Part shown: piece after piece, positions 2,112-25,515 of the stretch
How positions within the stretch are numbered: the first letter of the stretch is position 1
How the letters are laid out: each line of letters starts with the position of its first letter
Source of the DNA: Phenylobacterium sp.
GTDB taxonomy: Bacteria; Pseudomonadota; Alphaproteobacteria; Caulobacterales; Caulobacteraceae
Assembly (NCBI GenBank): GCA_019264505.1
Contig: JAHUZY010000514.1
Coordinates: 1 to 28,367, forward strand
Direction of reading: 5' to 3'
Length of the DNA: 28,367 nucleotides
Position numbers and translations under genes: made by a program
Notes under the pieces: generated by a model
The model's database searches: none
Seen by the model: the letters and a program-made list of their open reading frames with translations, nothing else
What the model was told of the DNA's origin: nothing

Positions 2112-2208
2112 GGCCTTAGGACAACAGAGGGCGAATTCTGACGCTCCAGAGCAGCGCCGCGAGCCCCGAGGCGGCTCGCCCCTAAGCCTTCCGATTTCAG
2201 GGATCGTC

Positions 2209-2565
2209 GTGCCGGCCCGCCCAGACCGCGTTCAGATCAAGATTTCCCTTCGGCCCGCTGAGTACCGGCAAGCCCAGGCCGCCGCCAAGGCCGCTGGTCT
2301 ATCCTCAGCAGGATGGGTCCGGGCCCTGGTGAGGGCGCGCCTGTTCGCCCAGCCGACCTTAGGCGCGCCGGTGGATGTCGCCATGGCCGATGCCCTAACT
2401 GAGCTGCGCCGCATCGCGGTTGCTCTGACGCATTTGGCCAAGACGAATGGGGAGGCGGCCGGCGGGCAGGTCGAAACCCTCGCAGCAGAGGCTCAGTGCG
2501 CCAACCAGACGCTGCATGCCGTCCTTGCAGGAAATTTGCGGGACTTGGGCCATGAGAGCCTCTGA
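2209..2565 (+). CDS. mobC: MobC-like relaxosome accessory protein
   Basis: A 118-residue protein that would bind the transfer origin and help the relaxase nick it. The N-terminus RVQIKISLRPAEYRQAQAAA is the ribbon-helix-helix opening typical of plasmid MobC/relaxosome proteins, followed by GLSSAGWVRALVRARLF. The C-terminal half, TELRRIAVALTHLAK then a helical tail, matches the family layout (ELRRIGNNLNQIAR-like). I chose GTG 2209 with AGGGA at 2199-2203. An ATG at 2110 is in frame but overlaps the palindrome and would add a 33-residue tail with no family match. The stop overlaps the relaxase start by 14 bp, so the two are coupled. The symbol reflects role, not a specific plasmid allele. Confidence 0.75.
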   Translation: MPARPDRVQIKISLRPAEYRQAQAAAKAAGLSSAGWVRALVRARLFAQPTLGAPVDVAMADALTELRRIAVALTHLAKTNGEAAGGQVETLAAEAQCANQTLHAVLAGNLRDLGHESL

Positions 2566-3580: not shown

Positions 3581-3651
3581 TCGGCCCTAGTTGCTTGATG
3601 TCCGCCCACTTAAGGCCGCCCCCGTCTTGGGCCTGCCAGGGCGAACGCGGC

Positions 3652-4314
3652 TCACCTCTGCCGGTCCTGCGATCTTCGCAGTCGTTCAACCGACAGCGGC
3701 GCCCGAAGCGGATCGCCTTGACCATCTTGAGTGCGCAGCTGGTTGAATCGAGCCTGTGTCTGGGCCATCAATCTCTGCCGAATCTCTGGGCTGGCCACGC
3801 GAGCTGCAGCAAGGGTTTCGATGGCTCTCAGGGGCGACCATGAGGTCTGCGCTTGTTCATGGACGGCATGTCCTGGGACCCTGCCTCCGCGCTGCGCTTC
3901 AGGATCCTGCTCACTGGGGCGGCTTCCCTGTTCGGCCATTCGTCCCAGCACTTCCTGATCGCGTACACTGGGCTCATAGCCGCGCACCAGAAGCCCTTTG
4001 GCGCTAGCTGAGAGCCAGACGTCGCGCCGGAAGCCGTGATCGCCCTGCACCTCGATCGTGGTCCAACGCCGTCGTAGGGCGATCGCCACCATATCGGCGC
4101 TGGTCTGCCGATCCTCCCGGTCGGTTTGCAGGGCTCGCCCATAGTCCCGGATGACGGGGCGATAGGTGGTTCGGTCTGGATAGAAACCCAGGCCAGGCCC
4201 GCCACGGCCATCGACATAGTAGCGGCTCAGCAGTTCAGGGGGCACATCGGCCCGGACCGCGTCTCCAGCGCGGCTGATCGCCACCACGATATTGGGCGCC
4301 CTAGTCGCGGCCAT
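3652..4314 (-). CDS. LPD7-domain protein, relaxase-associated
   Basis: A 220-residue protein whose central part matches the large polyvalent protein domain LPD7 found in conjugative relaxases: YRPVIRDYGRAL, then MVAIALRRRWTTIEVQG, FRRDVWLSAS and GLLVRGYEPSVRDQ (about residues 50-130). The C-terminal 90 residues are polar and end in a basic RLRRSQDRQR tail. The start is ATG 4314, with GGAGG four bases upstream; it overlaps the virD4 stop by 14 bp, so it is the last gene of the virB/virD4 operon. LPD7 has no settled biochemical activity; it is usually attached to TraI-type relaxases. I infer that it acts with the relaxase encoded convergently at 2552-3580, perhaps by linking it to the VirD4 coupling protein. 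Confidence 0.75.
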   Translation of the reverse strand: MAATRAPNIVVAISRAGDAVRADVPPELLSRYYVDGRGGPGLGFYPDRTTYRPVIRDYGRALQTDREDRQTSADMVAIALRRRWTTIEVQGDHGFRRDVWLSASAKGLLVRGYEPSVRDQEVLGRMAEQGSRPSEQDPEAQRGGRVPGHAVHEQAQTSWSPLRAIETLAAARVASPEIRQRLMAQTQARFNQLRTQDGQGDPLRAPLSVERLRRSQDRQR

Positions 4315-6163
4315 TTGGCCTCCGGGGCGCACGGCCATAGGCCTGGTCGAGGTAATGGAGGCTCCAACGGCGCCAGGCCGCCTCATCGGCGTGGCTTGGG
4401 GGCGGGGGATCATAGCCCCCCGCTTCAAGCGCCGCGCAAATCTCCTCGGCCTCCACGGACGCTGAAGGGGCAGCGGCGTCTGCGGTTTCGAAACTGCCAG
4501 GTTCCGGCGAGAGGGCCGCAAATGGCAGGATGATCGGCGGCGGACAGATGCGGGCTTGGAAGGCCCGTTCGCGCCAATAGATAACCTTCTTTCCCCGAAT
4601 GGGCGGGACCCCGCCCCGCAGAACCAGCATGTCGTCCTGCGGCATGAGGAGCAGCTCCTGCGGCAACATGAGCGGGCGCCGCTGGGAGGACTCACTCAAA
4701 CTACGGCGACCGCTGGAGAAGCCGGCCGGCCGGCTGCGGGTCCTGGCGGTGAGCCCGTACTGACCGAGCCGCTCACTCAAGGTGCGGGCCACCTGGATGT
4801 CCTTGGGCGTGAAAATGACCTCGACGCCGCAGTTGGCGATGATCTCTTCAGCCAGCTCAGGCCCATAGAGGCCGCGCAGTTGAGCTGTGCTCTGCAAGAC
4901 CGGCATGAGCCGAAGCCCATATCCCGCGGCATAGGAGAAGGCGTGGGCCAGCACTCTGGCCGGACCGAGCCTGGCGAACTCATCAAGGATGACCAGGACC
5001 TGGTAGGGCTCATCATCGCCTGGAGGCCGCCGGGTATTGAGGTCGATCAGCTGCTGGAAGAACAGGTTATAGAGCGGGGCCAGTCGCGCCAGATTGTCAG
5101 GTGAGGCGCCGAGATAGATCGAAATTCGTCGGCGTCGCAGGTCCTCCAGGCTGAAATCGCTGGTCTCGGTCGCCGCACAAACCTGCGGGTGGATCCACAG
5201 CCCCATTTTCGAGGTGATGGTCTGCTTGATGGAGGCAAAGGTGTTGTCTGAGGCAGAGCAGAAGTCCGCCAGCGCCTGGGCGCAGGCGGGCCAGACGGGG
5301 TTACCGCTGGCCGCACGCTCGGCCACGAGCGCCGGCAGACGCCGCCGCGGATCGCCCCGGGTCAGCTCAGCATAGATGCCGCCGAGGCTGAAAGGCCGCC
5401 CCTCCAGCTGCGCCACAAGGGCGCCGACGCCGATGAACCCTGTCCGCGCCGCTTCAGCCCAGAAGGGGTCGGCGTTGTCGGGGGCGGGAAAGAGCATGGC
5501 GGCGATCTTCTGCAGCTCATCGATCACCCGAAAGGCGTCCTGGCGCGGGACATGGCCCAAGGGATTGAAGCTGGCGGTGCGCCCGTCCGGCGCAAAGGGG
5601 TCAAACAGGATGGCCTGCTGACCGCTGGCGGCCCGAAAGCCTGCGCTGGCGCCCCAGTTCTCCCGCTTGACGTCCAACACCACAGTGGAGTCTGGCCAGG
5701 TCAATAGGTTGGGGATCACGACGCCGACCCCCTTGCCCGACCGCGTCGGCGCGGCCAGCAGCACGTGTTCCTCACCGCCGAAGATCAAGAGACGTCTGCC
5801 GCGGCGCCCCAGGATGATACCGGTCGATTTCCGTAGGCCCGCCGCAGCGATTTCGCCTTCGTGGGCCCACCTGGCCGCCCCATGAAGCGGAGTGGTCTTG
5901 CGGACGAGCAGGACGGTGATCAGGCCCATGACGGCGAGGGCGGCCATCAGACCTTGTCCGAACCCTTCCCGAAGCGCCGGATCGGCCCTCGAGCGCCAGG
6001 CCCAAACCAGGACCTCTAAGGGGTTCAGGTTTGGGTCGAGCAAACCCAGTCTGGCCAAGGCGACCATCAGGGCGCAGCCGACCACCAGGCCGGCCGCGGC
6101 GACCAAGCCCAGAATGACGACAATGACCCTAGCTGGCGTGGAGAGCTGTGTGATCGGGCTCAT
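4301..6163 (-). CDS. virD4: VirD4/TraG-type coupling protein (T4SS ATPase)
   Basis: A 620-residue type IV coupling protein, the inner-membrane ATPase that recruits the relaxosome to the secretion channel. Two membrane segments lie at about residues 12-36 and 70-88. Walker A is APTRSGKG (138-145), followed by GVVIPNLLTW. Walker B is LVILDEFARLG at about residue 390. The DVKRENWGASAGFR and FNPLG motifs are typical of the TraG/VirD4 family. The start at 6163 has GAGG six bases upstream and overlaps the end of virB11 by 35 bp. The C-terminal part beyond about residue 540 is acidic and variable, as is usual for substrate docking. Its presence argues for conjugation rather than a purely effector-secreting system. 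Confidence 0.95.
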   Translation of the reverse strand: MSPITQLSTPARVIVVILGLVAAAGLVVGCALMVALARLGLLDPNLNPLEVLVWAWRSRADPALREGFGQGLMAALAVMGLITVLLVRKTTPLHGAARWAHEGEIAAAGLRKSTGIILGRRGRRLLIFGGEEHVLLAAPTRSGKGVGVVIPNLLTWPDSTVVLDVKRENWGASAGFRAASGQQAILFDPFAPDGRTASFNPLGHVPRQDAFRVIDELQKIAAMLFPAPDNADPFWAEAARTGFIGVGALVAQLEGRPFSLGGIYAELTRGDPRRRLPALVAERAASGNPVWPACAQALADFCSASDNTFASIKQTITSKMGLWIHPQVCAATETSDFSLEDLRRRRISIYLGASPDNLARLAPLYNLFFQQLIDLNTRRPPGDDEPYQVLVILDEFARLGPARVLAHAFSYAAGYGLRLMPVLQSTAQLRGLYGPELAEEIIANCGVEVIFTPKDIQVARTLSERLGQYGLTARTRSRPAGFSSGRRSLSESSQRRPLMLPQELLLMPQDDMLVLRGGVPPIRGKKVIYWRERAFQARICPPPIILPFAALSPEPGSFETADAAAPSASVEAEEICAALEAGGYDPPPPSHADEAAWRRWSLHYLDQAYGRAPRRPNGRD

Positions 6164-7130
6164 GCCATACCTCGGTCATACGAAATACGCCATCGACGCG
6201 GCGCAGTTGGACCACCACATCGATCAGGCGCCGCAGAAGCCGCGCCACGTCGTCGCCGCCCAGATGGCGGCCGGCGGCGGACTCGCGCACGAGCAGACCG
6301 AGCTGCTCAAAGGCGAGTTCGGCGCTGTCGGCGTGGATGGTTGTGATCGATCCAGGATGGCCCGTATTGACGTTGCGAAGATAGAGAAAGGCCGCCTCGT
6401 CCCTCAGCTCCTGCATCAGGATGCGGTCGGGGCGCATGCGAAGGGCGCTTTCCAGGAGATCCTTTGGCCCCGTGCGCGCGACGCCTTGCCCGTCCTTTGC
6501 ATAGAGGAGGTGGACGACATTACGGTGGGGCGGGGTGAGCTCCCGAGTGTCTTCGATCGTCACCAGGCGCTCTTGAGGCGGAATCTGCTCAATGAGCGCC
6601 TTGGCGAGCGTGGTCTTTCCAGAACCGGTCGCTCCGGAGATCAGGATGTTGCGGCGATTTCGGACCGCCTGCTGGAAGAAGGCTGGCCAATCGCCAGCCG
6701 CTTTCAGTGCGGTCAGCCGTTGATCCTCAGCGCTCCGTGCGCCTGAGGCCGCATTGACCTGCCCAAACAGGCCGCCCTTCTCCAGGGATTGAAGTGTCAT
6801 CCGTCGGCGAGACGGCTTGCGTAGGGTCAGTGAGACTTGGCTGGCCGCGGGCGGGATGATGACCTGGCACCGGACACCGCCAGGCAGGGTGGTTGAGCAA
6901 ATGGGATGAGCCTCGTCCACGTTCTGGCCTGAATAGGCTGCGGCCAGGTGCGCCAGGGTGGACAACCAGGTCGCCGACATCTGGGGCTCCTGGCGCCATC
7001 GCCAGCGTCCGCCTTCCTCGATGGCCAGCTCGCCAGGACGATTAACCACCAGGTCGGTGACGCCAGGGCGATTGAGCCATGCCTGGAGGGGATCCATGTA
7101 GCGACGCAGCACCATGTCTTGCGCCGCCAT
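6129..7130 (-). CDS. virB11: VirB11-type ATPase of the T4SS
   Basis: A 333-residue hexameric traffic ATPase that works at the base of the type IV channel. The N-terminal domain includes TDLVVNRPGELAIEEGGRW. Walker A is ISGATGSGKTTL (165-176). An Asp box (VTIEDTREL), a MRPDRILMQELR Walker B-like stretch and a STIHADSA-like His box (SITTIHADSAELAF) follow. These are the ordered motifs of the VirB11/GspE superfamily, and the length is normal. The start lies 2 bp after the virB10 stop without a strong ribosome site, so it is probably translated by coupling. It overlaps virD4 by 35 bp. Confidence 0.95.
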   Translation of the reverse strand: MAAQDMVLRRYMDPLQAWLNRPGVTDLVVNRPGELAIEEGGRWRWRQEPQMSATWLSTLAHLAAAYSGQNVDEAHPICSTTLPGGVRCQVIIPPAASQVSLTLRKPSRRRMTLQSLEKGGLFGQVNAASGARSAEDQRLTALKAAGDWPAFFQQAVRNRRNILISGATGSGKTTLAKALIEQIPPQERLVTIEDTRELTPPHRNVVHLLYAKDGQGVARTGPKDLLESALRMRPDRILMQELRDEAAFLYLRNVNTGHPGSITTIHADSAELAFEQLGLLVRESAAGRHLGGDDVARLLRRLIDVVVQLRRVDGVFRMTEVWHEPDHTALHAS

Positions 7131-7132
7131 GG

Positions 7133-8233
7133 TCAGCGCCCACGCAGGTCATAGACCCCAGAGAAGTCGAGGTCCTGAGTGACGAAGATGGAGACCTCCA
7201 AGCCCTGCGGCGCCACGAGCCTTGGAGGCAGATCGATCGAGGATTCCAAGGCCACGGTAGGCGCTTGCGAAGGGGCGACCCACACCTGGCCCTCTGAGGA
7301 CTGTCGCGGCGGTTGGACCTGATCAATCATCGACAGCAGCACCGCGCCGCCAAACCGAGACCAAAAGCGCGTATCAAGCTCACCAGCCAAACCTGAGCGT
7401 CCCAGGGCGTCGGCGGCTGGCGCGTCGAGCCAGATGGTGACGCCGGCTGGGGTCACGGCGCGCAGCCAGCGCACCAGCAGGCGTTGGTCGCCCCGGGCGA
7501 GGCCCGCATCGTATCGTCCCAACACCCTAGTCCCCTTCTCCAGGAGGACCGTCGCTCCATTTTCGGAATAGATGTCGCTGGGCAGGAGGCAGGTCGCATG
7601 ACCCGGGCGGCTGGAATCCAGGGCCGTCTGCAGCAGGCAGGGCAGGACCGCACCGGCCAGCAGCTGGTAGTTGCGGTTTCCCACCTGGGCAGCCTGAGAG
7701 CGCCCGATCCCCTCCTGCCCCGAGGTCTCCGCCCCGAGGCTGGTGCGCACCACAACGGGGCCGCTGTCGGGGACGAGTTCGGAGGCCGGAGCGGCCCCAA
7801 CCTCAGCGCTCATGGTGCTGCGATAGACCACAAGCGGGCCTGGGGTTGGCGGCGTGCTCGGTTGCGCCTCAGGGGCCGAAGCCGTGTCAGGACGTGCGGA
7901 GGGCGCGGGAAACATGGCGGCGCCAAGGGCGGCCTCATCTGATTCGCCCTCCGACAGGCTTGGCGCTCCCAAATCCGGATCGTCCGGGAAGGGCTGGAGG
8001 CTTTGGGGCTCGAACCTAACCACCTGCTTGGCGGGGCCAGCGGTCTGCGGCTGCGCGACGGGCGTCCGGTCGCTCTGGCTGACCAACAGGATGGCGCCCC
8101 CACCTAGCAGGCCCAGGACGATGATGATCAGGCTGCGGGACGGTCGATAGGTCAGCCCCTGGGCGATGGGAGAAATCGTGCGGTTGAGCGGTGCGGTATC
8201 TGGCCCTTCGGGGGGATCTGGGGTGTGGTTCAT
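7133..8233 (-). CDS. virB10: VirB10/TrbI-type T4SS channel protein
   Basis: A 366-residue envelope-spanning core protein. A cytoplasmic N-terminus of about 33 residues is followed by one membrane helix (LIIIVLGLLGGGAILLVSQ). A proline-rich periplasmic linker runs to about residue 185. The conserved VirB10 beta-barrel domain follows: LLAGAVLPCLLQTALDS, HATCLLPSDIYSENG and LLEKGTRVLGRYD, then GVTIWLDAPAADALGRSGL and FWSRFGGAVLLSMID. The ATG overlaps the virB9 stop in ATGA. Length and layout match VirB10/TrbI rather than the larger TraB. Confidence 0.95.
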   Translation of the reverse strand: MNHTPDPPEGPDTAPLNRTISPIAQGLTYRPSRSLIIIVLGLLGGGAILLVSQSDRTPVAQPQTAGPAKQVVRFEPQSLQPFPDDPDLGAPSLSEGESDEAALGAAMFPAPSARPDTASAPEAQPSTPPTPGPLVVYRSTMSAEVGAAPASELVPDSGPVVVRTSLGAETSGQEGIGRSQAAQVGNRNYQLLAGAVLPCLLQTALDSSRPGHATCLLPSDIYSENGATVLLEKGTRVLGRYDAGLARGDQRLLVRWLRAVTPAGVTIWLDAPAADALGRSGLAGELDTRFWSRFGGAVLLSMIDQVQPPRQSSEGQVWVAPSQAPTVALESSIDLPPRLVAPQGLEVSIFVTQDLDFSGVYDLRGR

Positions 8234-9072
8234 GGCCTCTCGGTCTCCGATTTGAGGTCCCGAATGAGGCGGCCCGAGGCCGTCCCGGTGCGTTCGACGC
8301 CGCCATGGGGATTAAACGCCTCATTGAAGAGACACAGGCGACGCGCGCCCCGGCGCAGCCGAAGCTGCTCGGCGACCAGGTGCACCACCAGGAACTCATC
8401 TTGAATGTGGAACGGGACCAGCCGCTCAAGCCCATCGGGGCCGACCTCGTAGATGGCTGGGATGGGCTGTTGAGCTGGGAACCGCAGGATCGTGAAGCGC
8501 CCATTGTCGAAGACTTCCGAGGGCTGCAGTTCGATGGCCCCCTGGGCTGCGTAGGCGAAGTTTCGCGGCCCCTCGAAGGGGGCGGCTTGGACGGTCTGAT
8601 CTACGAGGGCCTGCGCATGCGCCTCGGCGATCGCCTGCGCCTGAGCCAAGGCGAGGTCTGCGGCCTGGCCTTGCCTGGTCAGGCGCAGCTCATAGGGCGC
8701 AGGCTCATTTGCGACGGCCAGGCTCAGGTCGAACCGGTAGCGGTGAGGGCCCGTATCGTCTTTGGCGGTCACCAGGAGGTTGGTCGCCTCGGCGTCCGCC
8801 AAGGGCTTAAGGACAAGGCTGTCGCCGAAGACAGCGACCTCCCACCCCCGCGCCTCACCCATCACCGCATGCTCCACCTGCTCCTTGGGCGGCAGTAGAA
8901 TTTGGGTGGCGTAGCCAGGTCGCAGGCGCAGGGCGATCACGCCAGACTGGCTGACGTCGCGCTCTGACAGGCGAGGATCGGCCAGGTCGGCCGCCGGTGT
9001 GGCGGCTGCGGCGTCTCCACTCATGACCATCATCCAGCCGGGGACAAGGAGACTTGCAAGGATGCGTCTCAT
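8230..9072 (-). CDS. virB9: VirB9/TrbG-type T4SS outer-membrane core protein
   Basis: A 280-residue periplasmic protein that, with VirB7 and VirB10, forms the outer-membrane core complex. An N-terminal signal peptide is visible (MRRILASLLVPGWMMVMSGDAAAA). The N-terminal domain has LRPGYATQILLPPKEQVEHAVMGE and WEVAVFGDSLVLKPL. The C-terminal beta domain holds FAYAAQGAIELQPSEVFDNG, TILRFPAQQPIPAIYEVGPDG and the NPHGGVERTGTA end segment. Start and stop both sit in 4-bp ATGA overlaps, with virB8 upstream and virB10 downstream. Confidence 0.93.
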   Translation of the reverse strand: MRRILASLLVPGWMMVMSGDAAAATPAADLADPRLSERDVSQSGVIALRLRPGYATQILLPPKEQVEHAVMGEARGWEVAVFGDSLVLKPLADAEATNLLVTAKDDTGPHRYRFDLSLAVANEPAPYELRLTRQGQAADLALAQAQAIAEAHAQALVDQTVQAAPFEGPRNFAYAAQGAIELQPSEVFDNGRFTILRFPAQQPIPAIYEVGPDGLERLVPFHIQDEFLVVHLVAEQLRLRRGARRLCLFNEAFNPHGGVERTGTASGRLIRDLKSETERP

Positions 9073-9749
9073 GGGACGACCTCTGGGTCGGCGCGATAGC
9101 TGGAAACCTGAAAGCCCAGCGGATTGCGAAGCCGGTCGGCCTCGGCCATGGGCGCATCGGTGTAGTGAAACGCCACGGTGGCGATCCAGTCTGATGAGGT
9201 GGCGGTGGGCCCAAACCGCTCCATCCGGTTGAACCTGACGCTGGCCACATTGGCGCTGACGAAGCTGATGGCGCGGATTTCGATCTGCGCTTCGGCGCCG
9301 GCGCCGTAGCGGTTCTGCGGGCTCTTAGGGTTGGCGACCTCAGTGAGAGCCGCCCATCGCTGCTGTTCAGCTGGGGTGGACATGATCGCCACCTGGGCGA
9401 AGTCGGCGGCGGCAGCGGGCGCCAGCCAGCCTTCCCGGGCGCGCACGTATTGGGCCAGGAAGTGTTTGGAGACGGCTTCGTCGTAGGTCAGGGGCCGTTC
9501 TGAGGTGAGCGCCGTCATGACATCCACGGCGCCTGTGGTGCGATCGACGCGGACTACAAAGGGCTCGACCGTTTTCAGCGGCGCCAGGGCGAAGACGGCG
9601 CTCACGGCGAGGCCCGCCACCGCCGCTGACCCCGCCGCCAGCAGCCAGGCAAGCCTTCGCGATCGCTCGGCGGCCTGGACCTGATCGGCGCTCCAGCTGG
9701 TGGCTTCGGCGAAATAGGTCTCCAGATCTGAAGATCGTACGCGGGTCAT
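9069..9749 (-). CDS. virB8: VirB8-type T4SS assembly protein
   Basis: A 226-residue bitopic inner-membrane protein that nucleates assembly of the channel. A short cytoplasmic start (LETYFAEATSWSADQVQAAE) and one helix at about residues 33-55 precede the periplasmic NTF2-like domain. That domain has TVEPFVVRVDRTTGAVDVMT, a VSKHFLAQYVRAREGW helix and NRYGAGAEAQIEIRAISFV. The C-terminal DAPMAEADRLRNPLGFQVSSYRADPE ending is characteristic of VirB8. It is coupled by 4-bp overlaps to the lipoprotein gene upstream and to virB9 downstream. Confidence 0.93.
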   Translation of the reverse strand: MTRVRSSDLETYFAEATSWSADQVQAAERSRRLAWLLAAGSAAVAGLAVSAVFALAPLKTVEPFVVRVDRTTGAVDVMTALTSERPLTYDEAVSKHFLAQYVRAREGWLAPAAAADFAQVAIMSTPAEQQRWAALTEVANPKSPQNRYGAGAEAQIEIRAISFVSANVASVRFNRMERFGPTATSSDWIATVAFHYTDAPMAEADRLRNPLGFQVSSYRADPEVVP

Positions 9750-9970
9750 GGGACGCCTTGCCCCGGCGCCTTTTGCCCCGCGCCCTCAGGGGTGGGTTCC
9801 GCCAGCGAAGGCGCGAGCGCGCCGGCTTGGTTGGCCGAGCCCTGCAGATTGACGGGTCGGCGTGCGCCGCCACCGCAGTCGTCCGGGACGTCGAGGGCTG
9901 CGCATCCAGCGAGCAGGGCGGACGCCGCGCATGCGAGGGTGATGGTTCTTAAACCTAGCCTGCCGTTCAT
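9746..9970 (-). CDS. virB7: Small lipoprotein in the VirB7 position
   Basis: A 74-residue protein with a type II signal peptide: a basic start (MNGRLGLR), a hydrophobic stretch and the lipobox LLAGC with the lipidated Cys at about residue 23. The rest is short and low in complexity, rich in Ala, Gly, Pro and Gln. Sequence alone would not identify it. Its place between virB6 and virB8, with 4-bp ATGA overlaps on both sides, marks it as the VirB7 equivalent, which anchors VirB9 to the outer membrane. The longer in-frame reading upstream is antisense-free but lies within virB6 and was rejected. VirB7 often has a second Cys that bonds VirB9; here one is present in VPDDCGGG. Confidence 0.8.
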   Translation of the reverse strand: MNGRLGLRTITLACAASALLAGCAALDVPDDCGGGARRPVNLQGSANQAGALAPSLAEPTPEGAGQKAPGQGVP

Positions 9971-10842
9971 CGGCGACCTCTGCGTGGGGTGAACAGGTAG
10001 CTGCGTGACGTGGCTGCGGCGTTGGCGAAGTCCGCCAGGCCAGCGCTCGCCCCGCCGGCGATCCCTGAGGCGATGGTTGGTGTCTGGAGGAAGAAGATCA
10101 TCGCCAGAAGGCAAAGGGCGACGAAGACAAGGCCGCCCGCCACGGGATCGCCCCCCTCGATCCGGCTCCATTGGCCGGCCACCAAGCCCAGCACCAGCTG
10201 TAGGACCGCAAGGATCAGCGCAAACAGGACGAGATAATTGATCGCTTGGGCGAGCCACCCGAAGAAGAAGCGACGCGTGACGTCAAAGAGCGCGCAGGCG
10301 ATGAAGATGGGGCCGAGCGCGATCAGGAGGGCGAGCGCAAGCTTGGCCAGCAGGGTGACGCCAAAGCCCAGCGCTGCGGTCAGCGCGGCGGCGACATAGA
10401 TCACCGCCGACAAGATCCAGGGCCCAAAATGGGTCCAGCTGGCTTCCTGAGCGACGTTCTCGGCCAGAAAGGCCGCCCGGGCGTAGAACTGGTCGAAGGC
10501 GCCGCCTATGTCGGCCGCGCCGCCGCCGCCGACCGCGGCGGCCAGGGCGTTGGGCAGGCCGCGAAACAGCGGGTCGGTGACATACGTCTGGTAGGCGACG
10601 GTTGTCGACAGGATCGAGACGATGGCTAGCTTGAGGCTGCGGACCGCAAAGTCGAGCACGGGTTCGGTGATCGCGCCGCGCACGATGGCGATCCCATAGA
10701 GGGTGACATAGAGCACCAGCGCTGATCGCACCGCCGGCGCCAGCTCGGCCGTCATGACGCCCATGCGGTCGCTCAGGAAGAGCTCAAGCCTCTCGTCAAC
10801 AAAGAGGTAGGCGGGGCCAAAGACCTCAAAGGGCTCATCCAT
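9967..10842 (-). CDS. virB6: VirB6/TrbL-type polytopic T4SS protein
   Basis: A 291-residue inner-membrane channel component. At least five hydrophobic segments are visible: around SALVLYVTLYGIAIVRG, LAIVSILSTTVAYQTYV, the long WILSAVIYVAAALTAALGFG / LALALLIALGPIFIACALF pair, YLVLFALILAVLQLVLGLV, and LVFVALCLLAMIFFLQT. The ALGPIFIACALFDVTRRFFFGW stretch (shown here in outline) is the hallmark of the VirB6/TrbL family. I chose ATG 10842, with CAGG nine bases upstream; a TTG at 10851 would put the ribosome site too close. It lies 30 bp downstream of virB5. Confidence 0.92.
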   Translation of the reverse strand: MDEPFEVFGPAYLFVDERLELFLSDRMGVMTAELAPAVRSALVLYVTLYGIAIVRGAITEPVLDFAVRSLKLAIVSILSTTVAYQTYVTDPLFRGLPNALAAAVGGGGAADIGGAFDQFYARAAFLAENVAQEASWTHFGPWILSAVIYVAAALTAALGFGVTLLAKLALALLIALGPIFIACALFDVTRRFFFGWLAQAINYLVLFALILAVLQLVLGLVAGQWSRIEGGDPVAGGLVFVALCLLAMIFFLQTPTIASGIAGGASAGLADFANAAATSRSYLFTPRRGRR

Positions 10843-10872
10843 GGCCGACAACCTGCTCGAGCGTAATCGGCT

Positions 10873-11580
10873 TCATGGCTGGAAGGTCGCGGCGTAGGCC
10901 GCCATGCGCTGGCGCCGCGCCAAGGCTACCCGTTCCTCCTGCGCCTGGGCGATCGCCCGGGCTTCGGCTGCTTGGGCCAGTTGCAGCGCCTGGAGCTGCA
11001 GCTGCTCATTGGCCAGTCTGGTCTGCTCCAGGGCGGTCTGGGCCTGGAGATCCAGGACGGCCCGCGCGCTGGACGCTGAGGCTAGCGCCTGATCCATGGA
11101 GGCGAGGGCCGTATTCCGCTGCGCCAAGGCCGCACTGAGGCTTTCGGCCAAGGCTAAGTCGCGGGCGGCCCGGGCGCCGGCGGCCTCAAGTCGTTGGTCA
11201 TGATCGCTCTCAGGGTCGGCCTCAAACAGCCGCTGCTCATCGCGCAGCTGCTGGGCCCGAGCGGTGAGGGCGCCTAGGTCATCAAGGGCTGCTTCGCTTG
11301 GGTCGAAGATCGCCGCGTCCGGCAGGGCCGAGCGCCACGCCCCCGTCTCGAGGATCGCTGCGATGTCTTCGATGCCGGAGGCCTCATCCAGGGTCTCGAC
11401 CAGCCGGCGGCCTTGCTCGATCTGGGTGCGAAGGCTCTCCAGCTGATCCAGGGCCGTCTGGGCCTGCTGCACCAGCTGAACATAGCTGGTGGGATCGTGG
11501 ACGATCATGGCGGCCGGGGCGGTGGCCGCGCCAAGACCTGCGATCACTAGGGCGCCCGCGCTGAACCGAAGCTTCCTCAT
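10873..11580 (-). CDS. virB5: VirB5/TrbJ-type minor pilus protein
   Basis: A 235-residue secreted protein expected at the pilus tip. A signal peptide covers about residues 1-24 (LRFSAGALVIAGLGAATAPAA). The mature protein opens with MIVHDPTSYVQLVQQAQTAL and is almost entirely helical and Ala/Gln/Leu rich, with long coiled-coil-like stretches ending in VALARRQRMAAYAATF. This is the TrbJ/VirB5 pattern. GGAGG lies eight bases before the ATG, and the start overlaps the virB4 stop by 4 bp. VirB5 proteins diverge fast, so assignment rests on the opening motif, helicity and position. Confidence 0.88.
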   Translation of the reverse strand: MRKLRFSAGALVIAGLGAATAPAAMIVHDPTSYVQLVQQAQTALDQLESLRTQIEQGRRLVETLDEASGIEDIAAILETGAWRSALPDAAIFDPSEAALDDLGALTARAQQLRDEQRLFEADPESDHDQRLEAAGARAARDLALAESLSAALAQRNTALASMDQALASASSARAVLDLQAQTALEQTRLANEQLQLQALQLAQAAEARAIAQAQEERVALARRQRMAAYAATFQP

Positions 11581-13958
11581 GGGAGGCTCCTCCTTTGCCT
11601 GTGAAATTCTGGCAGCCAGTCCTGCGGCGACTCGCCGAGTTCAGCCCGGAGCCGCTCGGCCAAGGCGAGCGTCTCAGCGCGTCCCGAGAGGATGGCGATC
11701 TCGTCGTCCATGCCATCGAGGCGGAGGCTGACGACGATGGAGTCTCGCCCTTGCTTGATCAGAAATTGTCGGCCGCCGGGCGCCATCTCCTCGCGCACCA
11801 GCCGGAATTCCTTCTCCGTCAGGCCAAAGCCATCGACATAGTCCGCCGCGCTCGCCAGCGGATTGGGCAGGTAGATCTTGGTCGGACACTGCTCGAGCAG
11901 GGTGTGGGCGATGGACGATCTCAGGACGTCAGCCGGGGACTGAGTGGCCAGGATCAGAAAGGCGTTCTGCTTGCGGTAGGTCTTCAACCCATCCTGGGCG
12001 AGCCCCCGAAAGGCCTCGTCGCCTAGGGCCTTCCAGAACTCATCGATGTCGATCACCAGGCGGCGGCCATCCACCAAGCTGTTGATCTGGTGCAACAGAC
12101 ACATCAGAAGCGGGGTTCGCACCTGCGGCTCATCGAGAATTCGGGTGATGTCGAAGCCCATCAGGTCGGCCTGTAGGAGGTCGGTCTCGCCATCCCCATC
12201 CAGGACCCAGCCTAAGCGTTGACCGGCGCACCATGGGGCGAGCCTTTGGCTGATGCCGTCAGCCTGGCCTTGGCTCATCAGGCTGCGCAGGGCCTCAAAG
12301 GAGCGCGCTTGCGGGGCGAGCGGCTCCAATCCTGCGATGGCGGCGTCGATCTCCCGCTGGGCGCGAGGCGTCAGGAATGGCTCACCGCCCACAAGCTCAG
12401 CCACCAGGCGGCCCAAGAAGGCGCGATTGGCGGGCGTGAGCGGCAACGTCTTGAGGGGGGCCAGGCCGCTGGGGCGATCTGGGGCAAAGTCGAGATAGGC
12501 GCCGCCGCGGGCCCGAACAAACAGCTCTCCGCCGCGGTCCTTATCAATCAGGATTTGCCGGGCGCCCAGGCGCTCCAGCTGGGCGAGGAGGAAGTTCTGG
12601 ACGACCGTTTTGCCAGAGCCTGTGGGGCCGCAGATGAAGGTGTGGCCCACATCGGCCACGTGAAAGCTGAACTCAAACGGAGAGCCAGCTGAGCTGCGGA
12701 AGGTGGTGACGGGCGCGCCCCAGTGCAGGTTGCGGCCTTGGCCTGTGGGGTAGGTGTGGAAAGGCGCAAAGGCCGCGAAATTGCGCGACGTGATCGGCGC
12801 AGGCCTGGGGCGCCACCGGAACTGACCGGGGAATTGCGCCCAGAAGGCCGGCTGCAGACCAAGATCCTCACGGACCGCGACCATGCCGGTGTCGGCGAGC
12901 CGGGCGCGCATGTCAGCCATGTTCTGGGCGAGGGCGGTGGGGCTTGAGCTCCGGACGAGGACCGAGGCGTGATGCTCGCCCATGACAAAGCGGTTGGAAA
13001 TCAGATCATCCAGCGCCTCGCCTAGGGCCTCCACCTGGGAGTTTGCCCGGTCGCGGGCGGAGCGTAGCTGCCTTTGCTTTCGGTCCATCAAGGCCGTCGC
13101 GCTGGCCTTGGACAGAAAGCTGAAGCTGTGGCTGATGACTAAGGGATAGGGAGCCTGCAGCAGGCCATCCCATAGCCCTGGCCGGGTGCGAGCAGGGTAT
13201 TCCTTTATGCTAAAGAGGCCGGCGAAGGTGGCGCCGGCGGCCTGCCGAACCTCCAGGGCCTCGCGCCCGAAGATAAGCCGGGCCCCGGCGATGGCGCTGC
13301 TGGCGCGGCCGCGGATGAGGGGAATTTGGCCTGGCTCCCCCGTCAGAAGCAGGTTGATGAGTTCCAACGGCTCCGACCAGATCAGGCCGTTGGCCTCGTA
13401 GAGGCTTAAAGGGCGCGGGCCATAGCGCGCCAACAGCTGTGACAGGTCCTGGCTCGCTCGCTCCAGATGGGAAAGCGCCTCGTCCTGGCGACGGCTGAAG
13501 TCTGTCGCCTCATCTCGTCTTGGGGAGAGGTTGAGGCGCGTCTCGGGCGGCGGCCTCCAAATCAACGTCAGATAGAGGTCGTTGAGAAACATCCTCTCTG
13601 ACGCCAGGCCAGCGCGATATGCGCCATCCAAACCCTGCGCAAACGCGCTCGCTACGGGCCGCGGCGTCGGCGGCGTGTAGGGCCGGCGAACAATGTGATG
13701 CCAAAGGCCCAGTCGCTCATCGGCGAGGTTTCGCCAGACATTGTTGAGCTGGCCGATCTCGTCATTCAGGTCTTCAAGATCGGCCGTCTCGAAACTTGCC
13801 CCGGCCAGTTGCAGGGAGATCATCAGGGCCTGGTTCTCAAGGCCCAAGACCTCATCGGTCACGTGACGCACATAGGGCAGGGCGCCCGCCAGGCCCCGCT
13901 GAGGGGCGACACCGCTCCTGCCTCGCAGGAGGCGCAAGTGGGGCTGGCCGCTAACCAC
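11577..13958 (-). CDS. virB4: VirB4/TrbE-type T4SS ATPase
   Basis: A 793-residue ATPase, the largest and most conserved T4SS component, which powers pilus assembly and transfer. The N-terminal CagE/TrbE domain starts at GLAGALPYVRHVTDEVLGLE and includes FETADLEDLNDEI and ERMFLNDLYLTLIWRP. Walker A is CGPTGSGKTVVQNF at about residue 443. Walker B is RLVIDIDEFWKAL at about 632, and ILATQSPADVLRSSI follows. The start is uncertain: reading upstream of GTG 13958 continues for 102 codons antisense-free but merely shadows virB3, so GTG 13958, overlapping the virB3 stop by 8 bp, fits best. No strong ribosome site precedes it, suggesting coupling to virB3. Confidence 0.93.
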   Translation of the reverse strand: MVSGQPHLRLLRGRSGVAPQRGLAGALPYVRHVTDEVLGLENQALMISLQLAGASFETADLEDLNDEIGQLNNVWRNLADERLGLWHHIVRRPYTPPTPRPVASAFAQGLDGAYRAGLASERMFLNDLYLTLIWRPPPETRLNLSPRRDEATDFSRRQDEALSHLERASQDLSQLLARYGPRPLSLYEANGLIWSEPLELINLLLTGEPGQIPLIRGRASSAIAGARLIFGREALEVRQAAGATFAGLFSIKEYPARTRPGLWDGLLQAPYPLVISHSFSFLSKASATALMDRKQRQLRSARDRANSQVEALGEALDDLISNRFVMGEHHASVLVRSSSPTALAQNMADMRARLADTGMVAVREDLGLQPAFWAQFPGQFRWRPRPAPITSRNFAAFAPFHTYPTGQGRNLHWGAPVTTFRSSAGSPFEFSFHVADVGHTFICGPTGSGKTVVQNFLLAQLERLGARQILIDKDRGGELFVRARGGAYLDFAPDRPSGLAPLKTLPLTPANRAFLGRLVAELVGGEPFLTPRAQREIDAAIAGLEPLAPQARSFEALRSLMSQGQADGISQRLAPWCAGQRLGWVLDGDGETDLLQADLMGFDITRILDEPQVRTPLLMCLLHQINSLVDGRRLVIDIDEFWKALGDEAFRGLAQDGLKTYRKQNAFLILATQSPADVLRSSIAHTLLEQCPTKIYLPNPLASAADYVDGFGLTEKEFRLVREEMAPGGRQFLIKQGRDSIVVSLRLDGMDDEIAILSGRAETLALAERLRAELGESPQDWLPEFHRQRRSLP

Positions 13959-14289
13959 GGAGGGCCTGAGCCAGGCTGGGGCCCGCCTCAATCGGGGCCG
14001 GGTTAATGCTTGGGCCACCCCAACCGGCGCGCTCCGCAAGCCTGGCGTGACTGTCGAGGGAAAGCCAGAGCAGGCGGAAGGCGAAGGGATCGTGGCGGCA
14101 GATTTCCCGGGCGAGCGCGTGCAGAGCCGGGGCGATGAGTAGCCAGGCCGGCGAATGGGCCATGAGGAACACCGCCCCGGTGAAGACCAGGTTGAGGCCA
14201 ATCGCTTCCATCGGCGCGCCAGCGACCATGGCCGGCCGCGTACAGGCCAGAAAAAGCGGCTCATCTTTCAGCCGGGTAGGCGCGCTCAT
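13951..14289 (-). CDS. virB3: VirB3-type T4SS membrane protein
   Basis: A 112-residue inner-membrane protein. It begins with the VirB3 pattern LKDEPLFLACTRPAMVAGAP and has two membrane segments, around IGLNLVFTGAVFLMA and WLLIAPALHALAREI. DPFAFRLLWLSLDSHAR at the end is also typical. The start may be ATG 14289, two bases after the virB2 stop, or GTG 14295, which has GGAG upstream and would overlap that stop; the difference is two residues. Its end overlaps the virB4 start. Confidence 0.9.
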   Translation of the reverse strand: MSAPTRLKDEPLFLACTRPAMVAGAPMEAIGLNLVFTGAVFLMAHSPAWLLIAPALHALAREICRHDPFAFRLLWLSLDSHARLAERAGWGGPSINPAPIEAGPSLAQALRG

Positions 14290-14291
14290 GG

Positions 14292-14666
14292 TCACCCGGC
14301 TCCGACAATGAGGTCGACGATCGCTGCGGCGCTGAAGATGACGATGATGCCGACGACGACGGTTCCGGCCCGCCGCATGTCGATGTGCCCAAACATCCAG
14401 ACAATTCCGGTCAGGATGACGGCGATGGTCGCAAGCCCCCGAATGACGCTGCTGTTGAGGAGGTCGACGATGTTCTGGATGAAGCCGCCGATTTGACCGC
14501 CAACGCCCGAGCTCTGCGCCAGGGCGGGCCCCGCTGCGGCGAGGCTGGTCAAGACGGCAAGCGCCGCCAGGCGCTGGGCGGTCCGGCGCGCGCGCCCTGG
14601 CGCGCCTTGCTTGCGGCGTCGCGCTGCTAACGAGGATAGACTTGGCGCGGGGAGACGTTTGATCAT
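14292..14666 (-). CDS. virB2: VirB2/TrbC-type major pilin
   Basis: A 124-residue prepilin. A long basic leader (about 30 residues with RRRKQGAPGRARR) precedes the hydrophobic signal core LAALAVLTSLAAAGPALAQ, with cleavage expected near ALAQ at about residue 51. The mature pilin has two membrane helices, VIRGLATIAVILTGIVWMFG and AGTVVVGIIVIFSAAAIVDLI, joined by a short HIDMRRA loop, as in VirB2/TrbC. The start was set at ATG 14666 because GGAGGA lies five bases upstream; an ATG 18 bp earlier lacks such a site. It is the first gene of the T4SS operon, with the palindrome 48 bp upstream. Confidence 0.9.
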   Translation of the reverse strand: MIKRLPAPSLSSLAARRRKQGAPGRARRTAQRLAALAVLTSLAAAGPALAQSSGVGGQIGGFIQNIVDLLNSSVIRGLATIAVILTGIVWMFGHIDMRRAGTVVVGIIVIFSAAAIVDLIVGAG

Positions 14667-14713
14667 GGGGTCCTCCATGATCAACAGTCTGCCGGCGTCA
14701 TTCGCGCGGGCAG

Positions 14714-14731
14714 ATCCGTAACCCTACGGAT
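14714..14731. promoter_or_regulatory. Right copy of the 18-bp palindrome upstream of virB2
   Basis: ATCCGTAACCCTACGGAT has perfect 7-bp arms (ATCCGTA / TACGGAT) around ACCC. It is 16/18 identical to the copy at 2094-2111 and in the same orientation. It ends the T4SS block: virB2 starts 48 bp away on one side and the CinA-type gene 141 bp away on the other. No gene lies in 14667-14871. Confidence 0.6.
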
Positions 14732-14871
14732 TGCCGCATGTTGGCTGGGCCTGAGCGCTTCAGGTCCCGCAAACGTCAGGTGGATTTGAGCGAGCACCTG
14801 CCGATTGGCGCGCCCCCCTTGCGCGGCGACGATGCTCGGGTACTCATCCGGCAGCCAAAGGTGAGATGAAC

Positions 14872-15666
14872 ATGACAACCCCGTCCGACGCCGCCCCTGA
14901 CCCGTTCACTGCCGGCCGGGTGACCGCAGCGGTGCTGATCATTGGCGACGAAATCCTGTCGGGCCGTACCCGGGACACCAACCTCGGCGATATCGCCAAG
15001 TATCTGGGCGCCCATGGAGTGGAGCTGGCCGAGGCTCGCACGGTCTCCGACGTGCAGGGTGAGATCATTGCGGCCCTGGACGCCCTGCGCGCCCGCTACG
15101 ACTATGTGATCACCACCGGCGGCATTGGCCCGACCCATGACGACATCACCGCCGATGCGGTGGCCGCGGCCTTTGGTGTCGAGCTTTACGAACACCCCGA
15201 CATTCTGGCCATGATGACCGCCCGCTGGGGCGGCGAGATCAATGCGGCGCGCCGGCGCATGGCCCGGGTGCCGGTGGGCGGCGAGCTGGTGAACAACCCC
15301 GTCCAGGGGCCGCCGGGCTTCATGATCGGCAATGTCTTCGTCCTGGCCGGGGTGCCGCAGATCATGCGTGGCATGCTGCAGGACGTGGGCCCTCGCCTGA
15401 AGGGCGGCGCCGTCGTGGTTTCGCGCACCCTGAGGGTCGATGGCTCCGGCGAGGGTGCGATCGCCGCCCCCCTAGAGACCCTGGCCAAGGCCCACCCTGC
15501 CCTGTCGCTCGGCAGCTACCCGTTCTATGGCGCCGACGGGTTTGGCTCGAACCTGGTCATTCGAGGCCGTGATCCAGATGAGGTTGATGCGACGCTGACA
15601 GAGCTGATCTCGGTTCTGGCCGAGGCCGGCATCACGCAGGTGCAGGTCGTGGAGACCCCCGCCTAG
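14872..15666 (+). CDS. CinA N-terminal/MoaB-like molybdopterin-binding domain protein
   Basis: A 264-residue protein with the MoCF (MoaB/MogA) fold of the CinA N-terminal domain: LIIGDEILSGRTRDTN near the start and the signature TTGGIGPTHDDITADAVA at about residues 78-95. VFVLAGVPQIMRGM and the YPFYGADGFGSNLVIRG C-terminal part follow. It lacks the C-terminal nicotinamide-nucleotide deamidase domain of full-length CinA, as is common for the stand-alone alphaproteobacterial form. Related domains hydrolyse ADP-ribose; a molybdenum-cofactor role is not implied by context. I chose ATG 14872 because AAGGTGAG (14858-14865) ends six bases upstream; ATG 14866 directly abuts it. It lies outside the palindromes and is probably core chromosome. 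Confidence 0.88.
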   Translation: MTTPSDAAPDPFTAGRVTAAVLIIGDEILSGRTRDTNLGDIAKYLGAHGVELAEARTVSDVQGEIIAALDALRARYDYVITTGGIGPTHDDITADAVAAAFGVELYEHPDILAMMTARWGGEINAARRRMARVPVGGELVNNPVQGPPGFMIGNVFVLAGVPQIMRGMLQDVGPRLKGGAVVVSRTLRVDGSGEGAIAAPLETLAKAHPALSLGSYPFYGADGFGSNLVIRGRDPDEVDATLTELISVLAEAGITQVQVVETPA

Positions 15667-23813: not shown

Positions 23814-24130
23814 GCGGACGTGGCGAAACGGTAGACGCAGCAGACTTTGACCATTGGAGTGCCCGCGGGGAAATCCGCGGCGTAGAACCGCTCAAACTCG
23901 GGGAAGGCTAACGGGGCGACCCCAGGCTAATCCCGAGCCAAGCCCTTTGAGGGGAAACTCTCGAGGGAAGGTGTAGAGACTAGACGGGCGGCGCCTAAGG
24001 CCTCTTCGCGGGCTAGGGCGAAGGGATAGTCCAGACCACGAACGCTCGGTGAGCGGCGGCGAAAGCCGAAGTGGTATGAAAATCTGCTTTCCGAAAGGGA
24101 GTGCGGGTTCGAGCCCCGCCGTCCGCACCA
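23814..24130 (+). tRNA. tRNA-Leu(UAA) split by a group I intron
   Basis: The two exons fold as a class II tRNA. The acceptor GCGGACG (23814-23820) pairs with CGTCCGC (24120-24126), followed by A and an encoded CCA (24128-24130). The anticodon stem is GCAGA (23840-23844) with TCTGC (24083-24087), and the T arm is GCGGG-TTCGAGC-CCCGC (24103-24119). A long variable arm (TTTCCGAAAGGGA) marks Leu. The joined loop reads CTT/AAAA, anticodon UAA, with the intron (23848-24078) after U34. That is the same position as in cyanobacterial and plastid tRNA-Leu(UAA). The mature tRNA would be 86 nt. Confidence 0.92.
23848..24078 (+). ncRNA. Group I intron (IC3-like) in tRNA-Leu(UAA)
   Basis: A 231-nt self-splicing-type intron. 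The 5' site is U47 with exon ACUU (23844-23847) pairing GAGU (23857-23860), giving the required U-G wobble. The intron ends in G (24078). Core helices can be written: P2 CCGCGG/CCGCGG (23863-23868/23875-23880), P3 CCGCTC/GGGCGG (23888-23893/23986-23991), P4 CTCGGG/CCCGAG (23897-23902/23932-23937), P7 GACTA/TAGTC (23978-23982/24027-24031). A GAAA-capped P9 lies at 24057-24068. The motifs GAGCCAAGC and GTGTAGAGACTAGACGG match the core of the Azoarcus tRNA-Ile intron closely. No homing endonuclease gene is inside, so it is not mobile on its own. Confidence 0.93.
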
Positions 24131-24463: not shown

Positions 24464-24545
24464 GCCGCGGCGTTTCGTGCGAACCCTGCGGCCCTTCCGT
24501 CGGCATGGGGTCGCAGGAGACTGATGCGGAGACCCTGGCCCAGCC

Positions 24546-25515
24546 ATGAGCCCCCCCGTGATTGTCACCGGCGCGGCCGGCTTCATCGGCATGTGGCTGA
24601 GCGTCTGTTGGCGCGGGGGGAGCGCGTCATCGGGGTCGACGACTTCAACGCCTATTATGATCCGGCGCTGAAGGCGGCCGGCGCCGCCCGGCTGGAAGCC
24701 AACCCCGACTTTCGCATGATGCGGCTGGATATCGCCGAGGCTGAAGCCTTCGAGAGGTTGGTCCGAGAGAGCGGGGCTGTGCAGGTGGTCCATCTGGCCG
24801 CCCAGGCCGGGGTTCGCTACTCGATCAAGAACCCCTTCGCCGATGAGCGGTCGAACCTCGCCGGTCATCTGTCGGTGATGGAAGCCTGCCGACGCCAGCC
24901 GGGCTTCAACATCTGGTCTACGCGTCTTCCCGTTCGGTCTATGGGGACCGACCGCAGGGCGGGGCGGGGTTCTGCGAGGATGACGCGGCCGCCGAGCCCG
25001 TCTCCCTCTATGCCGCCACCAAGTGGGCCTGTGAGCTGATGAGTTTTGCCTACGCGAAGCTCTACGGCCTCCCGCAGACGGGCCTGCGGTTCTTCACGGT
25101 CTATGGACCGTGGGGGCGGCCAGATATGGCCTATTTCAGCTTCACCCAGAAGATCCTGGCCGGCGAACCCATCGAGGTGTTCGGGCAGGGATAGATGGCC
25201 CACGACTTCACCTATATCGACGACATCGTCGATGGGGTATTGGGCGCCCTCGACCATCCGCCGGAGCGCGGCGGCAACCGCATCCTGAACATCGGCGACA
25301 GCGCGCCGGTGGGTCTGATGGAGATGATTGAAGTGCTGGAGGACGCCTTGGGACGACAGGCGACCAAGGTGTTCCGACCCATGCAGCCCGGCGATGTTAC
25401 CCAGACCTATGCCGACATATCTCGCCTACGCGCCCTGACCGGCTATCAGCCGAAGGTGAGCTTGGCGCAGGGGCTGCCGCGCTTTGTGCGCTGGTATCGG
25501 GATTTCCTTGGCTGA
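24546..25515 (+). pseudogene. UDP-glucuronate 4-epimerase-type SDR gene, disrupted
   Basis: Reading across frames gives a complete extended short-chain dehydrogenase of the CapI/UDP-glucuronate 4-epimerase type. The parts are VIVTGAAGFIG (NAD-binding GxxGxxG), VDDFNAYYDPALK, VVHLAAQAGVRYSI, YASSRSVYGD, YAATKWACELMSF (catalytic YxxxK), LRFFTVYGPWGRPDMAYF, and FTYIDDIVDGV to the end. The chain is broken three times. A shift occurs at about 24590 (one or four bases missing near GGCATGTGG, possibly CATG slippage). A second shift is at about 24910 (one base missing in TTCAACATCTG). A TAG stop lies at 25192-25194, where relatives have a charged residue. The active-site residues are otherwise intact, so decay is recent, or some lesions are assembly errors. 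The product would have made UDP-galacturonate for the glycan pathway. Confidence 0.85.

Follow-up and report, generated by a model that had tools for sequence, protein, structure and literature searches.

A group I intron in a tRNA-Leu(UAA) gene of Phenylobacterium and its relatives on integrative islands

A tRNA-Leu(UAA) gene of Phenylobacterium is interrupted between U34 and A35, which we take to be the insertion site of the cyanobacterial and plastid tRNA-Leu(UAA) introns. Is the insert a group I intron that can be spliced, and by what route could it have reached this gene? The sequence analyzed (here called the window) is the 28,367-nt contig JAHUZY010000514.1 from Phenylobacterium sp. (Caulobacteraceae), and the alphaproteobacterial host recognized in a first-pass annotation of the DNA is supported. 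We hold with high confidence that the locus as a whole is best explained as a resident tRNA-Leu(UAA) gene with a U34/A35 group I intron that is spliced to give the mature tRNA, and with relatives borne on islands.

The interrupted tRNA-Leu(UAA) gene

The gene and its parts were located as follows.

23814..24130, + strand: tRNA-Leu(UAA) gene, CCA encoded, split by a group I intron (exons pair)
23814..23847, + strand: 5′ exon, last base U34
23848..24078, + strand: group I intron of 231 nt, final G at 24078 (RF00028 and covariation)
24079..24130, + strand: 3′ exon, A35 through CCA

The exons pair through an acceptor stem of 7 bp and an anticodon stem (GCAGA/TCTGC), as the first-pass annotation had claimed for a tRNA-Leu(UAA) host, and the coordinates agree with its placement of the intron after U34 and with its terminal G. 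In a permissive Rfam scan of 551 nt, the intron matched RF00028 (Intron_gpI) at 40.6 bits (E value, 5.5e−9), and the next-best match scored 21 bits. This score lies below the RF00028 gathering cut-off of 50, a curated threshold rather than a structural feature; the group I assignment proposed for 23814-24130 is carried by the E value and by covariation across 54 homologues. In a sample of 385 alphaproteobacterial genomes, 21 of the 34 RF00028 matches were also below the cut-off, so the score of the window intron is usual for Alphaproteobacteria. The Rfam check that had been suggested therefore gave a divided answer, with a match in the permissive scan and none at gathering score on the whole window. 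ARAGORN, run on the whole window, likewise reported nothing. Free-energy folding gave a z score of −2.1, which is weak evidence taken alone.

Core structure and covariation

Ten helices (P1, P2, P3, P4, P6, P6a, P7, P8, P9, and P9b) were placed manually on the window sequence, with the Rfam alignment and an alignment of 54 homologous tRNA-Leu introns (the window and a plasmid copy included) as guides. Among them are the following.

23844..23860, + strand: P1, exon 23844-23847 (ACUU) with intron 23857-23860 (GAGU)
23863-23868 with 23875-23880, + strand: P2, two-sided changes at 6 of 6 pairs, 87.7% of cells paired
23888-23893 with 23986-23991, + strand: P3, UA/CG exchange in 22 of 54 rows
23897-23902 with 23932-23937, + strand: P4, 5 of 6 pairs invariant, 96.3% paired
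23978-23982 with 24027-24031, + strand: P7, pseudoknotted with P3, 100% paired, AU/GC exchange in 4 of 54 rows
23992-23995 with 24017-24020, + strand: P8, AU/GC exchange in 26 of 54 rows
24035-24039 with 24071-24075 (span 24035..24075), + strand: P9
24057-24060 with 24065-24068, + strand: P9b, within P9

Across the 54 homologues, 97.3% of 2376 cells were paired; the 44 pairs of the window itself hold by construction, and the other rows are the actual test. Two-sided changes were found at 17 of the 44 pairs compared with 8.6 in shuffles, and none of 500 shuffles reached as high a value. When partner strands were shifted by one to three columns, pairing fell to 25 to 44%, a comparison that favors the unshifted version because the structure was read from the same 54 sequences. 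The exchanges in P3, P7, P8, and P2 amount to covariation. In P1, all 54 rows keep the U34.G wobble at the 5′ splice site, and the terminal G was invariant across them. The intron thus has the conserved P3-P4-P6-P7-P8 core with the P3/P7 pseudoknot, together with the U.G pair and terminal G of group I introns. P1, P3, P4, P7, and P9, all said in the first-pass annotation to be drawable, are among the ten helices.

Search for an uninterrupted gene

The window genome (G000; 3.2 Mb in 515 contigs) is 81.7% complete and contains one match to the intron gene. It has 28 tRNA matches, the partial match of the window among them, and the Leu anticodons that ARAGORN names in the other 27 are TAG, CAG, and CAA. 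A pattern for an uninterrupted tRNA-Leu(UAA) was absent from 12 of 15 genomes tested, including G000, G001, G005, and G018; a second intact gene in these four, the finding that the first-pass annotation named as its refutation, was thus looked for, and none was seen. The 12 also include the congeners G010 (100% complete), G025 (100%), and G029 (99%). G001, a further congener, is 100% complete, and its intron gene is 92% identical to that of the window. The pattern does work, as it found the gene in G012, a genome without the intron, and on inspection its matches in G024 and G006 were pieces of a split tRNA-Leu, not whole second genes. As G000 is only 81.7% complete, absence from it is not proof. 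The well-assembled congeners thus appear, from the genomes searched, to decode UUA with the interrupted gene alone, and this gene would have to splice.

Genomic neighborhood

Two genes in the surroundings of the window copy were placed as follows.

1248-2003: SfsA (Pfam)
14866..15666, + strand: MoCF_biosynth (molybdopterin-binding-domain) protein (Pfam)

A homologue of the MoCF protein lies near the intron in loci of 16 further genomes of other Alphaproteobacteria, and on this comparison of sequences the protein is a marker of an old chromosomal locus. Other window genes identified by Pfam encode a WecG-type glycosyltransferase, a group 1 glycosyltransferase, and a nucleotidyltransferase/GlcNAc-2-epimerase fusion. 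The surroundings are common to G005, G001, G018, L130, and L193, and the tRNA is therefore a settled chromosomal gene. Neither a CTTAAAA sequence nor a cut tRNA nor an integrase of the families searched was seen in any part of the window.

Between sfsA and the MoCF gene, positions 2062-14878 hold genes for a relaxase (PF03432), a type IV secretion system (T4SS) coupling protein, a T2SSE ATPase, and a VirB4-like protein. As sfsA and the MoCF gene are adjacent in the congener G005, this stretch is an inserted block resembling an integrative and conjugative element, and no integrase was seen in it. Separately, a frame judged by eye to resemble a sugar-nucleotide epimerase runs over three open reading frames at 24524-25515 (24524-25039, 25046-25288, and 25195-25515), perhaps through a frameshift or an assembly error; homologous pieces exist in congeners.

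The intron gene is present in 11 of 59 relatives, one of these matches covering only 271 of 317 nt. The mature tRNA of the window is 94 to 100% identical to those of its own small clade, 89 to 95% to three Rhodobacterales copies (Rhodovulum, Poseidonocella, and Paracoccus), 86 to 89% to the island and plasmid type, and 71 to 81% to 11 other copies from Phenylobacterium and Caulobacter. Exons so unlike those of most congeners compared suggest a past replacement of the entire tRNA gene. A cyanobacterial case is described by its title as "recombination of the entire tRNA locus" (Rudi 2002, cited in PMC3984707).

Relationship to introns in other tRNAs

The window intron is not a lone oddity; it is a member of a large alphaproteobacterial and acidobacterial family of tRNA-Leu(UAA) introns, found in at least 17 of the 385 alphaproteobacterial genomes, that of the window included. 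The 30 RF00028 loci examined among the 34 in this sample comprised 17 in Leu-UAA, 3 in Arg-CCU, 5 in Lys, 1 in Thr-GGU, and 4 without a resolved tRNA. For the class of G844 (Gammaproteobacteria), RF00028 matched 48 of 321 genomes, and 30 loci comprised 17 in Ile-CAU, 3 in Thr-UGU, 2 in Leu-UAA, 1 in Lys-CUU, 1 in Arg-CCU, and 6 without a resolved tRNA; tRNA hosts were assigned by the rules of a custom script, and 25 survey loci have no resolved tRNA.

A quick maximum-likelihood tree of 176 tRNA introns was built, which is alignment dependent, carries a long-branch warning, and has 76 of its 173 inner branches open. It leaves out three introns of unclear tRNA (L075, L076, and L253) and 11 duplicates, and contains no cyanobacterial introns. 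Seventeen tRNA-Ile(CAU) introns, three in Thr-UGU, and one in Lys-CUU form a long separate branch (SH-aLRT, 100), and 40 mostly alphaproteobacterial tRNA-Arg(CCU) introns form one clade (SH-aLRT, 97) near the Leu introns. Support for joining this clade to eight Leu introns is weak (82). Acidobacterial Leu introns sit among alphaproteobacterial ones. Because a motif search that favors this core supplied most of the Leu and Arg rows, the nearness of Leu and Arg introns is partly built in, the separateness of the Ile introns less so. The first-pass view that the core is closest to the Azoarcus type is not supported: in the core tree that it had called for, the window does not cluster with the Ile-CAU introns, and Arg-CCU introns are nearer. 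The insertion point also differs, after position 36 in the Ile introns and after 34 in the Leu introns.

Sources available in part describe tRNA-Leu(UAA) group I introns from cyanobacteria and plastids (PMC4476775 and PMC5733544) and tRNA-Arg(CCU) introns of the Agrobacterium type from Alphaproteobacteria (Paquin 1999, cited in PMC7717549), and the available part of PMC7717549 states that BbgpI, a Bartonella intron of the tRNA-Arg(CCU) type, splices in vivo and in vitro. Among the matches listed, no report of tRNA-Leu introns in Alphaproteobacteria was found; most journals lay outside the search, and such introns may be in print.

Group I introns in tRNA genes (Lys-UUU, Leu-UAA, and others) were also observed in IMG/VR contigs (L064-L079, e.g., L078, L070, L067, and L071), and 9 of the 11 loci scanned have further tRNA genes close by. 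No clear virion gene was present among eight neighbors checked with Pfam, and the viral status of these contigs rests on IMG/VR. According to the part of a review available, phage introns are so far known only from protein genes (PMC3984707). Gordonia phage Daredevil (L063, NC_048021) has, ∼580 nt away from its integrase gene, a 251-nt stretch with ∼70% identity to the window gene. A search of viral contigs for the cyanobacterial-type motif gave no matches, and the integrase search in viral contigs confirmed none.

A copy on resistance plasmids

The window gene has matches covering at least 80% of it on 1266 of 72,556 plasmids, almost always at 80 to 90% identity, and it also matched 624 of 5,426 complete Escherichia coli genomes, a set biased towards clinical isolates. 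With the copy from pCTX-M3 as the query, 1272 of 1293 matching plasmids had at least 99% identity. In pCTX-M3 the tRNA adjoins tmrB and the gentamicin-resistance gene aac(3)-IId, and a 1,973-nt query running from the island junction through the tRNA and tmrB to aac(3)-IId matched (at least 80%) in one place on 1,139 of the 72,556 plasmids. No feature was annotated under the foreign tRNA in E. coli among the matches listed (20 of 649). The intron of the plasmid copy scored 36.8 bits against Rfam (E value, 7e−8), and it retains 43 of the 44 pairs drawn on the window.

Several lines bear on the source of this segment. The plasmid gene is 95% identical to that of Enterovirga aerilata, 93% to that of a Novosphingobium metagenome-assembled genome, 91% to that of Mesorhizobium BR1-1-16, and 83% to that of the window, and its mature tRNA is identical to that of Enterovirga. 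The best named relative of TmrB in another kind of host is from Sinorhizobium (81%), with unnamed proteins at 83 to 88%. Relatives of AAC(3)-IId occur in Ensifer (86%), Brucella anthropi (85%), and Bradyrhizobium (77%), and equally close ones in Pseudomonas aeruginosa (87%), metagenomes (85 to 87%), and Burkholderia cenocepacia (77%). One genome from the Enterovirga family (G1320) has adjacent tmrB and aac(3) genes, with a DNA identity of 67%. These comparisons suggest an alphaproteobacterial origin for the aac(3)-IId segment, probably close to the Enterovirga family. The exact donor was not found among 397 genomes of the order, five of which have an AAC(3) relative (44 to 77% identity) with no tmrB in the 2.4 to 3.8 kb around it. 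Sinorhizobium meliloti psymA carries tmrB at 80%, and no aac(3) lies within the 12.6 kb examined around it. An aac(3)-IIe form (L284) is without the tRNA, its match beginning 84 nt downstream of the tRNA end. The available text of an article on the aacC2-tmrB region (PMC7096625) mentions neither "tRNA" nor "intron," and no report of a tRNA-Leu intron beside aac(3)-II was found among the matches listed, though one may be in print.

Islands that split tRNA-Leu(UAA)

The sequence GGACTTAAAA lies upstream of the plasmid copy and is followed by a stretch that Enterovirga also has; in Enterovirga this stretch lies directly 3′ of the 5′ half of a different, intron-less tRNA-Leu that is cut at the anticodon loop. 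In three genomes, an ordinary tRNA-Leu(UAA) is interrupted within its 7-nt anticodon loop by an island of 9 to 58 kb, the matching 3′ half lying 58,348 bp away in Enterovirga, 9,045 bp away in Beijerinckia GAS462 (G1355), and 40,772 bp away in G1334. The halves in all three rejoin at CTTAAAA with 7 of 7 acceptor, 5 of 5 anticodon, and 5 of 5 T-stem pairs. A tyrosine integrase (PF13356 and PF00589 in the Beijerinckia copy) lies at the 3′-half end; relative to that of Beijerinckia, the Enterovirga integrase is 77% identical and that of G1334, in two pieces, 57 to 61%. The intron-bearing tRNA-Leu sits just inside the left end, opposite the integrase.

The unbroken native gene, which represents the empty site, was found in 77 of 199 genomes of the Enterovirga family and is absent from G443 (Enterovirga), G1239, and G1334; 122 of the 199 lack the exact native pattern, most without a known island, and absence alone says little. 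Left ends only were identified in G444 and G1239 by motif search and, in degenerate form, in G445 and G1354 by eye; the right-end 3′ half was not found in the stretches examined of G444, G1239, and G445. No cut tRNA lies within 330 nt upstream of the similar tRNAs of G446, G1182, G1359, and G1363, from the same family. Relatives of the integrase of this first island design (class A) are present at 60 to 80% identity on 115 plasmids.

Beyond the right end of the Beijerinckia island (L351, 14185 onward), a partial second left end is followed by the 5′ part of an intron-bearing tRNA-Leu, perhaps a relic of an earlier island at the same site. The motif TAGGTGCA occurs within ∼100 nt upstream of the tRNA in L059, L118, L157, L350, and L351 and recurs near the right end of L351; it may be an integrase arm site or part of a promoter. 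No report of such tRNA-Leu islands was found among the matches listed, and they may be in print.

A second integrase design

Of 98 distinct Leu introns, 19 have a tyrosine integrase gene of a second family immediately upstream of the tRNA and in the same orientation, compared with none of 78 introns in other tRNAs, a count that leaves out the three of unclear tRNA (L075, L076, and L253); by its exons L253 is a Leu gene, with an integrase ∼2 kb upstream (L242). At least 1400 nt of upstream sequence was available for 83 of the 98 Leu and 34 of the 45 Arg introns, and no searched integrase was found upstream of the 45 Arg-CCU introns (34 with enough upstream sequence). The phmmer queries were three integrases only, so other integrases beside Arg, Ile, and Lys introns would be missed. 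The second family matches Pfam Phage_integrase weakly (25.2 bits; cut-off, 27.1). Its hosts are Alphaproteobacteria and Acidobacteria, including Phenylobacterium (L010 in G024, L011 in G006, L080, and L144). At 12 of 20 loci inspected, a tRNA-Leu 5′ half cut at CTTAAAA precedes the integrase; one of the 12 (L208) keeps a degenerate 3′ part, the other eight include two with too little upstream sequence (L145 and L162), and one of the 20 (L158) has no resolved tRNA. Another Phenylobacterium locus (L231 in G010) may hold a tandem pair of islands, as it has two second-family integrases and, ∼5.6 kb upstream of the intron core, a cut tRNA-Leu 5′ half.

Relatives of this integrase matched 13 plasmid records, of which seven were examined. 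Four near-full-length relatives lie beside tRNA-Lys or tRNA-Met sequence (by eye; ARAGORN reported tRNA-Met in L400), with tRNA 3′ halves or a whole tRNA adjoining and no intron core found beside them. A partial integrase (L403) has tRNA-Met upstream, and neither tRNA nor intron was seen at L402. In the loci examined, it is therefore the Leu target that the intron accompanies, rather than this integrase family in general; the plasmid control covers the second family only, not the class-A design. Bradyrhizobium ottawaense pBoOM27 (L404, 3004-3700) has an integrase fragment fused to a tRNA-Leu intron without the 5′ exon, probably an island relic on a plasmid.

Proposed model and alternatives

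By analogy with established group I introns, P1 (exon ACUU with intron GAGU) would define U34.G as the 5′ splice site, an exogenous guanosine bound to P7 would attack after U34, and the freed U34 would then attack after G24078, giving a ligated tRNA that would be matured normally. On this reading, integrative islands also carry members of the family as whole tRNA genes, recombine at the anticodon loop of the host tRNA-Leu(UAA), and supply a substitute tRNA. The window copy is best read as an integrase-less resident gene. It has neither an upstream integrase nor a host 5′ half cut at CTTAAAA, and since no integrase or truncated tRNA lies near it, its link to the islands is one that we infer; it may be a former island copy now resident or a member of the resident pool from which islands drew.

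The first of these two origins, in which the window tRNA is an island-borne replacement whose island was lost, seems to us possible but rather doubtful. Its exon type (GCGGACG..GCAGA) is the same as in the island and plasmid copies, the whole tRNA appears to have been replaced relative to congeners, and the integrase design is present at four loci of the genus, but the window lacks the searched integrases, a truncated tRNA, and CTTAAAA, and, its own clade aside, the mature tRNAs closest to it are Rhodobacterales copies that bear no signs of an island. That the intron is a decayed, non-splicing relic, with a tRNA-Leu(UAA) in the missing fifth of the genome doing the work, is highly improbable: incompleteness of the genome and an Rfam score under the cut-off would allow it, whereas core pairs are intact and covarying and G001, G010, G025, and G029 are also without an uninterrupted gene by pattern. 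We consider it very unlikely that an Azoarcus-type tRNA-Ile intron transposed to tRNA-Leu. Both are small tRNA group I introns, and a title cited in PMC3984707 describes the Azoarcus and Synechococcus introns as closely related IC3 ribozymes, yet the Ile-CAU introns occupy a separate long branch and the insertion sites differ (after 36 in Ile, after 34 in Leu).

The intron of the island-borne tRNA-Leu sits at CTT^AAAA. This position falls inside the 7-bp integrase core, and because the intron splits that core it may protect the replacement tRNA. The carried tRNA would rescue UUA decoding after splicing, and the intron would keep it from being a target. Tentatively, and with some reservation, we extend this to immunity in general: islands would keep and spread tRNA-Leu introns, CTTAAAA integrases would break the host tRNA, replacements with a split core would escape their own and sister integrases and would still splice to a functional tRNA, residents such as the window copy would be domesticated replacements that keep this immunity, and the aac(3)-IId gentamicin-resistance segment of clinical plasmids would be the left end of an alphaproteobacterial island that still has its intron-bearing tRNA. 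Two points count against this: the island sample was found through the intron, so that intron-less rescue tRNAs would be missed, and the recognition site may extend beyond the 7-bp core.

The window intron itself is one more example of an already known kind. Islands that target the interrupted site and carry whole tRNA genes offer a route by which such introns could pass from one bacterial order or phylum to another. Randau and Soll reportedly proposed in 2008 that tRNA introns shield tRNA genes from integrases in archaea, and the islands would be a concrete, testable bacterial case.

Comparison with known systems

Islands with a tyrosine integrase at a tRNA anticodon loop usually restore the tRNA. 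The Leu islands share the integrase family and the tRNA target with them and differ in leaving the host tRNA cut and in carrying a complete intron-bearing tRNA-Leu within them. Among introns, those of cyanobacterial and plastid tRNA-Leu(UAA) occupy the same tRNA as the window intron, whereas the window copy is from the Alphaproteobacteria. The Azoarcus-type tRNA-Ile(CAU) intron is likewise a small tRNA group I intron in an anticodon loop but belongs to a separate branch and has another insertion point. The tRNA-Arg(CCU) introns are the nearest in the tree from another tRNA, are also small, and have a host tRNA that is likewise missed by annotation; they differ in the tRNA and in insertion after position 36 instead of 34.
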